Assembly: GCF_000317065.1 (NCBI RefSeq)
Contig: NC_019701.1
Location: 3,172,001 to 3,236,000, forward strand
Reading direction: 5' to 3'
Source of the DNA: Pseudanabaena sp. PCC 7367
GTDB lineage: Bacteria > Cyanobacteriota > Cyanobacteriia > Pseudanabaenales > Pseudanabaenaceae
DNA length: 64,000 nucleotides
Numbering within the stretch: the first letter of the stretch is position 1; each line of letters opens with the position of its first letter. A program made the translations under genes and the position numbers. Under the pieces are notes generated by a model that saw nothing but the letters and a program-made list of their open reading frames with translations, searched no databases and was not told the origin of the DNA. Shown piece by piece: positions 17,444 to 23,098 of this stretch.

Positions 17444-19036
17444 CTACTTTTGCTTAATCACCAACAGCGTGACATCATCATAGACCTGATGATCGCCCAC
17501 AAACTGACACCAATCAGCGATTACCATCTCCTTAATTGTGGCTGCCTCATGCTCACGGTTTTCCCGTACTAAAATAGCCAACTGATCAATGCCATATTGT
17601 TGGCAATCATTATTTTCGGCTTCAGTAATTCCGTCTGTGTATAAAATTGCCACATCACCGGGATTAAACTCAATCATTGAGTGATCGACAAACTGCGAGA
17701 TTTCCTCCTCCAGGCCGATCGGGAAACCCAGATCAACGGTGTCAAAAAACTCAATCAAGCCATCTCGGCGCACCAGGATCATTTCTTCATGCTGACCAGT
17801 CAGACAAAGACTATTATCGACGTAGTGCAGCATCAACAGGGTCATGAATTTTTTGGAACCCATCCGCTGCGTATTCTGATAAATAACCCGATTCAAAATA
17901 CTAATAAATTCACGTGGGTGCAGATCTTCGCTATTAGTCATAGTCCGAACCGCCGATTGCACCATCAGCATCAACATGCCACTTTCCAGGCCATGCCCAG
18001 TTACATCACCCACGCTAATAATTAAATGCTTGCCATAGGGCAGCACGTCATAATAGTCACCACCAACCCGATCGGCAGGTTTAATAAATGCGGCAATATC
18101 CAGCTTTTCAACCTGGGCTAATTCCTCTTCCTTTGGTAGAATCAGCTCTTGCAAGCGGGCAGTGACTGCTAGCTCTGATTCCATTTGAATATTCTCGGCC
18201 TGCAAGCGTTGATTGAGTTGACTGATTTCATCATAGGCCAAGGCCAGATCTTGAGTGCGTTCTTTGACCCGATCGCTTAGGTCACGGGAGTTGGCTCGCA
18301 GCCTCCGAATTGCTAAATACAAACCGGCAAAGCCAATCCCAAAGGATACCGCCATGATTGCGATCGTACCTGTCAATCCATCATTTGTCTTGGCAATATA
18401 AACATCAAGGGGTTGAGTCACCTCCAGCACACCGCGCACATCACCAACCTGCCAATCGGTCTTAGGGCTCTGGGGATGGCTGTTGTGGCAACTCACACAA
18501 CTGGGTTTCATGAGATCGGCCTGGGCATACCGAAGTGCTTTGCGGCCACGAAAAACATCGGTGCGATAGTAAACCTGGGTAGGATTTTCTATCAAAAATT
18601 TCCATGCTTCCTGCTCAAAACTATCCCTTGCCCCACCTTCATCTTCTCGCCAGGGGAAAGGATAAGCGCTATAGAGCCGAAAGGACATGCCTTGATTTAG
18701 CTCCCTGATCCGGCTGCTCAGTTCAATTAAATAGGTGGCCGGCAGCGGTACGGTATTTTCTTGCTGGTCATAGTCATGGCTGATTTTGAGCCCATCGATC
18801 GCTTCCAATCGTGACACTACTGCTGCACTGTAAAGGGTGCGTGCCTCTGCCATAATCTCGGCGGACAGTTTGGCATTTTCGAGTGCCTGGGATTCAATTA
18901 AGCTTGATGACAACATCGATATATCCAGCAAAACACCGATCGCACCAATACAAAAGAAGATGGTCAATACCAACACCACCCGCCGTTGCAATAATTTAAT
19001 TAAACTTTGCCAAAGCTGGGAAATTGTTTTACTCAT
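17444..19036 (-). CDS. Heme-c sensor (Tll0287-like/DUF3365) SpoIIE-type phosphatase
   Basis: A 530-residue membrane-anchored signalling protein. The first membrane segment is at about 19-38. The extracytoplasmic Tll0287-like (DUF3365) domain (about 45-215) has a CxxCH heme-c site at 180-184 in KPSCVSCHNSH. The second membrane segment lies at about 221-243, followed by a coiled coil (250-295) and a PP2C/SpoIIE phosphatase domain (about 305-530) with DRVGGDYYDVL, SVGDVTGHGLESGMLM and ILYTDGITEAEN carrying the metal-binding aspartates. The likely job is to sense redox state or a gas ligand through heme outside the membrane and dephosphorylate a partner, perhaps an anti-sigma antagonist. No partner gene is adjacent. 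Confidence 0.88.
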   Translation of the reverse strand: MSKTISQLWQSLIKLLQRRVVLVLTIFFCIGAIGVLLDISMLSSSLIESQALENAKLSAEIMAEARTLYSAAVVSRLEAIDGLKISHDYDQQENTVPLPATYLIELSSRIRELNQGMSFRLYSAYPFPWREDEGGARDSFEQEAWKFLIENPTQVYYRTDVFRGRKALRYAQADLMKPSCVSCHNSHPQSPKTDWQVGDVRGVLEVTQPLDVYIAKTNDGLTGTIAIMAVSFGIGFAGLYLAIRRLRANSRDLSDRVKERTQDLALAYDEISQLNQRLQAENIQMESELAVTARLQELILPKEEELAQVEKLDIAAFIKPADRVGGDYYDVLPYGKHLIISVGDVTGHGLESGMLMLMVQSAVRTMTNSEDLHPREFISILNRVIYQNTQRMGSKKFMTLLMLHYVDNSLCLTGQHEEMILVRRDGLIEFFDTVDLGFPIGLEEEISQFVDHSMIEFNPGDVAILYTDGITEAENNDCQQYGIDQLAILVRENREHEAATIKEMVIADWCQFVGDHQVYDDVTLLVIKQK

Positions 19037-19468: not shown

Positions 19469-20587
19469 TTAACTGCTGATCAATCGCTTTGGCACATCAG
19501 AAAGGGCATCAGGCGGTAGGAAATAGGAAGAAGCGAGCAGATCGTCATTGTGATCAATGATTTCGGGGAATTTAATCTGAGGTAATACCTGCACCGCAAA
19601 CACTTCCTGAATCATGTCTTCAAATTTCAAGAAAGCGACAATCTGCCCAGTTGTTAAATTAACCACCCATACGCCACTATTACGCTCACTGGCTTTTTCG
19701 GTGATCGGCACGCCACTAAAAACCGCCGTTTCCCGCACTTGCGAAAGGCCAATAAAAGCCAGATTGCCACAGAAGTCTAGCCCCCTGGTAAATCCCGGCA
19801 TTTGGGCGATCATCTCGGTGCTGCCATTGTTCAAGTCAACCTGGGAAATGCTGCCATAGCCGGACTCTAATAACCAAGTTCGATCGCCATAGCGACGGGG
19901 CGAGTGGGGCATTGATAGACCCCTCAGCAAAACTTCCTTACTTTCCACATCCATCAACACACCACCATTAACCTTGTTCTGTCGCCAGCCTCCAGCCATG
20001 TCCGTCTCACCCAGGGCAGTGACATATTTAGGCTTGCCATCTACCATCGCCAGACCATTGAGGTGACAGCGATCTTCTGGGGCCAGGGCAGTTACATAGG
20101 CAGGCCGCCAGCGGGGCACAAAACTATGCTGGCGATCGAGGGTACAGAGGCAAGAAAATCTCGTATTCACAAACCAGAGCCCATCTTCACCATAGGCCAT
20201 CTCATGAATATCAATATCTCCGGTGATATGGGTGCTATAGGGCAAATAACAGGCATCATGTTTATCAGGGGGATCTAATTTTTGCGCCACGTTGGGCATA
20301 TTGCGAAAATTAATGATTTGCGGGCCAGAGCCCAGACTGAGTTGATTACCCGTCATTGCCATCCCCATTGGTTTTTTAAACACTCGAAAATGGGTGTTGA
20401 GGTTTTCGCCATCGGCACGCACAATAATGATTTTGCCAGCCTGGTAAGTAGTGACGGCTAACGAGATTCCCAATTGCGAGAGGATTTGGGGGAAGTTACT
20501 GGTATGAATACTGCGAAGCGGTGACTCAGCGGGATTGTCTGGATTTTCTGGGTTCTCTGGGGTGTTGTTAGGTGTTTCAGCGCTCAT
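19469..20587 (-). CDS. TIGR03032-family protein (predicted beta-propeller)
   Basis: A 372-residue cytoplasmic protein matching the TIGR03032 family as I remember it: LAVTTYQAGKIIIVR near residue 45, FNPMGM-like FKKPMGMAM, a conserved DIHEMAYGEDGLWFVNTRFSCL (about 130-150), RCHLNGLAMVDGKPKYVTALGETD, and SGYGSISQVDLNNG. The repeating strand-turn pattern suggests a beta-propeller. Function is unknown; family members are found near glycan or secondary-metabolite genes, but nothing of that kind lies here. The first 30 residues are Pro/Asn/Glu-rich and probably disordered. Confidence 0.8.
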   Translation of the reverse strand: MSAETPNNTPENPENPDNPAESPLRSIHTSNFPQILSQLGISLAVTTYQAGKIIIVRADGENLNTHFRVFKKPMGMAMTGNQLSLGSGPQIINFRNMPNVAQKLDPPDKHDACYLPYSTHITGDIDIHEMAYGEDGLWFVNTRFSCLCTLDRQHSFVPRWRPAYVTALAPEDRCHLNGLAMVDGKPKYVTALGETDMAGGWRQNKVNGGVLMDVESKEVLLRGLSMPHSPRRYGDRTWLLESGYGSISQVDLNNGSTEMIAQMPGFTRGLDFCGNLAFIGLSQVRETAVFSGVPITEKASERNSGVWVVNLTTGQIVAFLKFEDMIQEVFAVQVLPQIKFPEIIDHNDDLLASSYFLPPDALSDVPKRLISS

Positions 20588-21142: not shown

Positions 21143-23098
21143 ATGCCCAAGCCGAGTTTTCTAGATGCACAACAACCCTGGCATAGCTGGGAAATTGAGC
21201 AAGTTCTTGAGCAGCTTCAATCTGGGGTTGAAGGTTTATCTTATGTGACCGCAAGACAGCGGCTACGGCAATATGGCAGTAACAAACTACCGCGCCATCA
21301 CAAGTATCGATCGATCGCGCGGCAGGTATTTACGAATCCGTTTACCTATGTGGTAATTACCCTGGCGATCGCGGTGCAATATTTTAGTGGTTATGGTTGG
21401 GCGATTTTGCTAGTAGGGGTAATTCATGCGGCAATGGGAGGCTCATTGATTGTTTGGTCAGAACGCACCAATCGATTGGCCAGTCTGGGCAGGCAGGAAC
21501 GGAGACATTTTTTACCCGCCAGTGCGATCGTGGTGCAACGGGATGGCGAGACGATGGAAGTTCCGGCGCGTGATCTGGTGATGGGGGATTTGGTGCAGCT
21601 CCAACCGGGAGTTCGTCCTACAGTTGATTTGCGGTTACTGGCAAGTGAAGATTTACAGGTTAATGAAGCCAATCTCAGTGGTGGTGCGATCGTTGCGAAG
21701 CAGGCTGATACTGTTTTACCGGCCGAAACGATCGCCCTGGAGCGCACTAATATGGTCTTGGCAGGCAGCGAAATTACCGCTGGCTCTGGTTGGGGAATTG
21801 TGATCGCCACTGGCAAAAATACCTTTTGGCAATCGACTACGGCCACCAGTCAAACTTTTTCAGCCTTGCACCGTCAGCTTAGAAAATTAAGGCGCTGGTG
21901 GGTGATTATTACCCTGGCGGTGGCATGCGGCATGGGCATAACTGCCTGGCAATTGGAGTTTAATGATCCGGTGGCGCTGGCGGCGGTAATTTTAGTGGGT
22001 TGCTATCCCCAAAATTTATTGCGGATCGCCACATTAGCACAACTCCTGGCGATTAAGGTACTGGCTAAAAAACGGCTATGGGTAAAATATCCAGCGGCGA
22101 TCGATGCCCTGGGGCGGATTGCAATTATTATGTTGATCCTAGAATCAGATACGACCCTCAATATTGAAGACCTCAGCCCAGCGGGGATTAGCTGGTGCGG
22201 CTTGATTCGGGCTTCGGCCGATGATGCCAATTCCCTGGGGCAGGTGTTTGGGTTGGAGGTATATAGCTATTTTGACCAGCCGATCGAACGGATCCGCAAT
22301 TGGCAGGCAAGTCAGCAACCAGTGGCGGTTATGGGTAAGGAATTGGAAGATATTCCCCTATTGGTGCAGGCGGATTTGGGGCTGAGCGATCGCTCCCATC
22401 CCCGCGAGGTGCGCGATAGTGCGGGTTTGGTTTTGCCCAAGGAAGATTTTACCTATTTGCCCTTGGCGATCGCGGCGGGTCGGGCGGTGTTCGATCGCTT
22501 GCAACGACTGTTGGTGCTAATTTTTACTGGCCTGGCTGCAACTTTATTGCTGGTGATTGCAGCTCTGGTGGGCAAGGCGGCATTTGATACGGCTCTGGAT
22601 GCCACCCTGGTGCCGCTGGAAATTCTCTGGATTGGCGCGATCGTTACTCCGGCTCTAGCGTTGCCGTTTATGATTGAACCGGGCTTGAATAACATCATGG
22701 CACAGCCAGCGGCGAAGTTTCAGTCAATTTCCCGCCCAGGTAATTTAATTCGATTTGGGGCAGCTAGTTTAACCACCACGATCGCCGTGATCGCTGTTTT
22801 TGCGCTTAAATATCAGGGCTTGGCCGCATCCCTGGCACAGGCACGGACAATGGGTTTTACTACCCTGGTATTTGCCCAGGGGTTCTTTGCTTTTGGGTTA
22901 TGTCGGCGTAGCTTGCTTAAAAATATCGTTTTGGTGGTGATTATGGCGATCCTGGTGGTGGTGCAAATTGCCTTCGTCGAGGTTAACTTCCTGGGTGAAT
23001 TGATGGGCACAGTACCGCTGACCTATACGGAATGGGCGATCGCGGCGCTGGCTGCTACTTCTGTTTTCTGGGTCTATGAATTATTGCGAACTAATTAA
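21143..23098 (+). CDS. P-type-ATPase-like membrane protein lacking the catalytic motifs
   Basis: A 651-residue protein with the layout of a cation P-type ATPase: an N-terminal cation_ATPase_N segment (GLSYVTARQRLRQYGSNKLP), membrane segments at about 66-106, an actuator domain (125-225), membrane segments near 252-270 and 276-305, and four to six C-terminal membrane segments. The working parts are changed. TGES reads NLSGGA (177-182), DKTGTLT reads ESDTTLN (334-340) with no phospho-acceptor aspartate at its usual place, and GDGxND reads GKELED (398-403). The nucleotide-binding domain is nearly missing, about 50 residues instead of 200 or more. The frame is unbroken, so this looks like a maintained pseudo-ATPase. 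Role unknown. Confidence 0.8.
   Translation: MPKPSFLDAQQPWHSWEIEQVLEQLQSGVEGLSYVTARQRLRQYGSNKLPRHHKYRSIARQVFTNPFTYVVITLAIAVQYFSGYGWAILLVGVIHAAMGGSLIVWSERTNRLASLGRQERRHFLPASAIVVQRDGETMEVPARDLVMGDLVQLQPGVRPTVDLRLLASEDLQVNEANLSGGAIVAKQADTVLPAETIALERTNMVLAGSEITAGSGWGIVIATGKNTFWQSTTATSQTFSALHRQLRKLRRWWVIITLAVACGMGITAWQLEFNDPVALAAVILVGCYPQNLLRIATLAQLLAIKVLAKKRLWVKYPAAIDALGRIAIIMLILESDTTLNIEDLSPAGISWCGLIRASADDANSLGQVFGLEVYSYFDQPIERIRNWQASQQPVAVMGKELEDIPLLVQADLGLSDRSHPREVRDSAGLVLPKEDFTYLPLAIAAGRAVFDRLQRLLVLIFTGLAATLLLVIAALVGKAAFDTALDATLVPLEILWIGAIVTPALALPFMIEPGLNNIMAQPAAKFQSISRPGNLIRFGAASLTTTIAVIAVFALKYQGLAASLAQARTMGFTTLVFAQGFFAFGLCRRSLLKNIVLVVIMAILVVVQIAFVEVNFLGELMGTVPLTYTEWAIAALAATSVFWVYELLRTN

Follow-up and report, generated by a model that had tools for sequence, protein, structure and literature searches.

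Type IIA Ca2+-ATPases such as LMCA1 of Listeria, SPCA1 and SERCA are built of an N-terminal segment, M1-M2, the actuator (A) domain, M3-M4, the phosphorylation (P) domain core and M5-M10, in that order. A truncated isoform of SERCA1 (S1T) is reported to be unable to pump and is linked to calcium leak (PMC6953121, citing Chami 2001). P-type ATPase families have also been defined from genomes, some of them functionally uncharacterised, for instance family 23, CtpE (PMC5615198). P-type ATPases are usually recognised by the Asp of DKTGT that becomes phosphorylated; one inventory states that every member carries it, and sequences that do not were discarded there (PMC10763278). We found no paper containing both 'P-type ATPase' and 'pseudoenzyme' in the open-licence literature, the coverage of which is incomplete, and nothing comparable there on inactive or pseudo P-type ATPases, although a passing mention elsewhere is possible.

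The gene described here is located at 21143..23098 on the + strand of the window, the whole stretch of 64,000 nucleotides of Pseudanabaena sp. PCC 7367 that was analysed (genome of 4.89 Mb in two contigs). Its frame runs uninterrupted from an ATG start through 651 codons to a TAA stop, and the predicted protein has the N-terminal part, the A domain and the ten-helix membrane region known from type II P-type ATPases, along with a shrunken P part. A preliminary description of this DNA had proposed a single intact 651-codon frame with N-terminal, actuator and membrane parts, which agrees with the Pfam matches, all above their gathering cut-offs. Cation_ATPase_N (PF00690, E 4e-10) covers aa 13-76 (21179..21370, +), including W13 and H14, which are invariant across the pseudo-pump family. 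E1-E2_ATPase (PF00122, E 5e-25), corresponding to the A domain plus M3-M4, covers aa 125-310 (21515..22072, +), and Cation_ATPase_C (PF00689, E 2e-24), corresponding to part of M5-M10, covers aa 489-648 (22607..23086, +). The remnant of the P domain, from which the N domain is excised, was delimited at aa 324-435 (22112..22447, +) by alignment with pumps and by the secondary structure of an AlphaFold model (pLDDT in this region about 55-87). No match to the N domain (PF13246) or to HAD hydrolase (PF00702) was obtained for the window protein in the Pfam search; both are matched by an intact 928-aa pump of the same genome. The score against TIGR01522, the curated NCBIfam equivalog for type IIA, is 108 bits, below the cut-off of 798. 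By PF00122, the genome harbours five P-type ATPase loci, the window gene among them, and in a protein search the intact pump was the sole further type II protein.

Relative to the intact pumps of relatives, about 230 residues of the N domain, which in pumps lies between DKTGT and TGD, are missing in the alignment. A second missing loop, of about 35 residues, would follow the TGD helix and precede PxxK. Together with the lack of a PF13246 match, this deletion confirms that most of the nucleotide-binding domain is absent, as first proposed. The three motif losses previously pointed out are likewise present in the window copy. In the alignments, the TGES site reads SGGA (aa 179-182; 21677..21688, +), a form further degraded than in most relatives, where GGEA or GGDS keeps an acidic residue. 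The former phosphorylation site reads ESDTTLN (aa 334-340; 22142..22162, +), E-S-D being invariant in 23 aligned members. The DKTG register is ambiguous here, a gapless alignment putting the Asp on hydrophobic residue 332 and a two-residue shift putting it on E334, and in either register the window residue is not Asp. The GDGxND site reads GKELED (aa 398-403; 22334..22351, +) for a family consensus of GNDxED; in the 28 aligned rows, position 403 is always D or E, and 23 rows have an acidic residue at position 400. At motif II, TGD has disappeared and the window reads LIRAS; Ile or Leu stands where this motif has its Thr, and the motif III Lys is not conserved. The dead state is common to the family and its details vary, most members having GGEA at TGES and GNDxED at GDGxND.

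The alignment with pumps further revealed losses at TGD and at the ion site that the preliminary description did not contain. Type IIA pumps bind cations through a Glu in M4 (PEGL), Asn/Glu in M5, and Asn and Asp in M6, and the window protein lacks this set. In M4, YPQNLLR (aa 288-294; 22004..22024, +) replaces xPEGLPA, with a change of E to Q at 290. P289 is invariant or nearly so across the family, and R294, located about one turn past the M4 glutamate of the pump, is Arg in all 24 sequences and is not found in pumps. The Asn and Glu ligands of M5 are absent. In M6, WIGAIVTP (aa 496-503; 22628..22651, +; G498 invariant) replaces WxN(L/M)xxD/S, the NxVTD segment having become GAIVT in the window and GAIxTP in the family. 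These motif and ion-site substitutions are shared by five or more genera, and many are invariant. R294 may fill or plug the old cation pocket, or repel cations from it. Of the roles initially considered, the channel, if it were to conduct cations, and the sensor, if it were to use the classical site, are made less likely by the ligand losses and the invariant M4 Arg seen in the alignments.

Orthologues with the same losses occur in related cyanobacteria. A full-length single copy was found in 30 of the 38 genomes of the GTDB family Pseudanabaenaceae, and a thirty-first genome (G011) carries a fragment at a contig end. Among the named members are Pseudanabaena biceps PCC 7429, P. mucicola FACHB-723, P. 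cinerea FACHB-1277 and Phormidium tenue FACHB-1050. Three genomes of genus g2 encode a more eroded probable orthologue (L083:988-2751, -; L084:713-2452, +; L085:921-2336, +), two of 579 and 587 aa and a third of 471 aa, counted from the first start codon after a stop. Both longer g2 proteins start with a WHxWEL segment resembling that of the pseudo-pump family. No copy was detected in two genus g3 genomes, nor in G005 (77% complete) or G294 (82% complete). A whole-protein profile run on 291 genomes of the class gave full-length matches in Pseudanabaenaceae only, and a P-domain profile run on 386 genomes of the phylum gave, outside the family, only weak matches, mainly in frames of 740-840 aa. 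Seven of these were examined and rejected, since their DKTGT and GDGxND motifs are intact and they are pumps of the copper type (CPC). Across 84,980 species, a scan by motif pattern returned solely Pseudanabaenaceae plus uncultured or loosely named cyanobacterial records, and the viral contigs searched gave zero matches. As a separate observation, a type II pump gene of G002, a genome devoid of the pseudo-pump, is split (L086:1156-3867) into frames of 544 and 342 aa, with the break between the N domain and TGD, by a frameshift, decay or an assembly error.

In trees, the pseudo-pumps and the g2 proteins group together, outside both cyanobacterial type II groups. The g2 proteins are placed with the pseudo-pumps with an SH-aLRT of 99, over a very long branch. 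At 1.9 and 3.8 changes per column, the branches are too long for the trees to single out a parent pump lineage.

Purifying selection, the check suggested in the preliminary description, was evaluated by the Nei-Gojobori method. In the 14 closest ortholog pairs within Pseudanabaena, dN/dS is 0.05-0.11 for the gene and below 0.17 for each domain, M3-M4 being among the most constrained. Adjacent genes in the same pairs give 0.01-0.24, and the pseudo-pump is comparable. The strain of the window has no close relative in the comparison set, so that maintenance of its copy is read from the open frame and from conserved columns (101 of the 111 columns invariant among other members are matched) rather than from a strain-level dN/dS; against L031, dN is 0.44 for a dS of 1.69, near saturation. 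Given family-wide single-copy orthologues with the same losses and low dN/dS, the gene is, by these comparative data, maintained across the family as a pseudo-pump, as had been anticipated. The two findings that would have overturned this view, a sequencing error and decay without selection, were looked for and neither was encountered: for the family, the orthologues and the dN/dS values rule out both a sequencing error and a pseudogene. We infer that selection acts on the scaffold itself.

An AlphaFold model based on 23 orthologues (mean pLDDT 69, pTM 0.60) has residues 328 to 431 arranged as a Rossmann-like P-domain core. In the comparison with SERCA that the preliminary description suggested, and likewise with SPCA1 and LMCA1, about 570-600 residues of the model can be superposed, almost its full length (Foldseek, VIA-align; best Z 36, to SPCA1). 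A second model, with the Pseudanabaena sp. lw0831 sequence first, was poor (pLDDT 56, pTM 0.39), did not reproduce the first P-domain strand and was not used. The models are only moderate, and exact geometry, such as the residue standing in for the phospho-Asp, is not readable from them.

Within Pseudanabaena, the neighbourhood of the gene is partly conserved, with an upstream hypothetical gene and a DegT-like aminotransferase (assignment read from its sequence). The window and other genera differ in neighbourhood, and no conserved operon partner was found across genera. An operon-based function was therefore dropped, context giving no functional clue. Two other genes of the window can be mentioned here. 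The neighbour gene at 19469-20587 (-) strongly matches TIGR03032, a family of unknown function, and the gene at 17444-19036 (-) encodes a protein of 530 aa whose C-terminal part resembles the SiaA phosphatase (E 1e-14, a score well short of the family cut-off); CxxCH in its N-terminal half suggests a haem-binding sensor domain.

With no N domain, phospho-Asp, TGD, intact GDGxND or standard cation ligands, the E1/E2 cycle appears out of reach, and pumping through the P-type cycle is, from sequence, essentially excluded. The gene probably has an important role other than pumping. In our best explanation, to which we give a probability of about 45% as a whole, the protein would be a vertically inherited, single-copy, type II (P2-like) pseudoenzyme that, without catalysis of its own, partners or regulates another membrane protein. 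It would fold like a pump, be locked out of the cycle and work by binding, and its interaction surface would be made up of what it has kept, the A domain, the core of the P domain and the ten helices. The obvious candidate partner is the intact type II pump, the only one that this genome has among its five P-type ATPase loci. Intact type II pumps are, however, also present in genomes of a genus that lacks the pseudo-pump, context names no operon partner and the fold models are moderate. The identity of the partner is accordingly a guess, because an operon partner is missing and type II pumps persist where the gene does not.

The alternative that survives best, although we consider it unlikely, is a sensor in which an acidic cluster of the P domain (E334, D336 and 400-403) would bind Mg2+ or another ligand, the membrane part relaying its state to a partner. 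The invariance of E334, S335 and D336 in the 23 members and the acidic character of 403 and, in most rows, of 400 are in favour of such a site. A further point in favour comes from the g2 orthologues, which are more eroded and yet differ from the main clade in having SDxxxD at motif IV and an Asp where pumps have the phospho-Asp (TIVVDLNTYD, QILLDLDHYN), but the g2 alignment at this site crosses a very long branch. Moreover, the first P-domain strand is missing from the second fold model. A bolder proposal, in which a cyanobacterial lineage has made a pump into a near-universal regulatory subunit whose dead P domain senses a ligand and controls a working pump or a photosynthetic membrane process, is speculative, and we would not bet on it.

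The ten-helix domain could alternatively conduct an ion or a small solute passively, without ATP, as a channel or leak like S1T. No helix of the membrane part is missing and the part is under constraint, M3-M4 being one of the regions of lowest dN/dS, and the non-pumping truncated P-type ATPase linked to leak (PMC6953121) offers a precedent. The classical cation ligands are gone, however, and the invariant Arg near the former M4 Glu should repel cations, which makes this possibility rather improbable. We regard as very improbable an altered chemistry, for instance with a Glu acceptor or another phosphoryl donor, by which the protein would be a mini-pump or a HAD phosphatase. ESDxxL does recall DxDxTL of HAD proteins, Glu taking the place of the nucleophile, and g2 members have an Asp in the phospho-Asp column. 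Against this stand the replacement of the motif II Thr, the unconserved motif III Lys and the missing N domain, and residue 334 is Thr, not an acid, in L018. Finally, a decaying pseudogene or an assembly error is hardly credible, for although SGGA and GKELED are more divergent than the motifs of most relatives, the frame is open, the same losses recur in independently sequenced genomes, and dN is low relative to dS both within Pseudanabaena and against L031.

The non-catalytic partner or regulator that we favour can be set against the systems described so far. LMCA1, SPCA1 and SERCA are the best solved-structure matches of the window protein, by sequence and by fold, and it has its parts in the same order, but in contrast to them it has lost the N domain, the phospho-Asp, the Thr of TGES, TGD, GDGxND and the cation ligands, and it measures about 650 aa where they have 880-1000 aa. 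The intact type II pumps of cyanobacteria (L082 of this genome, for example) are homologous to it over the retained domains, at roughly 25-36% identity, and form their own clades, separate from the pseudo-pumps. None of the features that define a P-type ATPase as an enzyme (the DKTGT Asp, N domain, TGES, TGD and GDGxND) is found in the window protein, whereas homology of the A and membrane domains makes it, by sequence and predicted fold, a member of the superfamily by descent. Purifying selection on a gene devoid of catalytic residues is one mark of a pseudoenzyme, and the comparative data show it here. Annotation can be misled by such proteins: the Pseudanabaena pseudo-pump L047:8001-9959 scores 74.1, above the cut-off of 62.3, with the NCBIfam model 'HAD-IC family P-type ATPase', and pipelines may label a pseudo-pump a pump. 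If the regulatory-subunit proposal were true, motif-based inventories would discard a pseudo-pump class by design. CtpE differs from the pseudo-pump in that it has been described as active, a pump that takes up Ca2+ in an energy-dependent manner (PMC5615198). S1T is a truncated isoform of a working gene, whereas the pseudo-pump has a gene of its own, which a bacterial family has retained. A single-copy family devoid of the Asp, the ATP-binding domain and the ion ligands shows that a pump scaffold can be retained for another role, and provides a clean system for finding a role of this scaffold that is independent of pumping.
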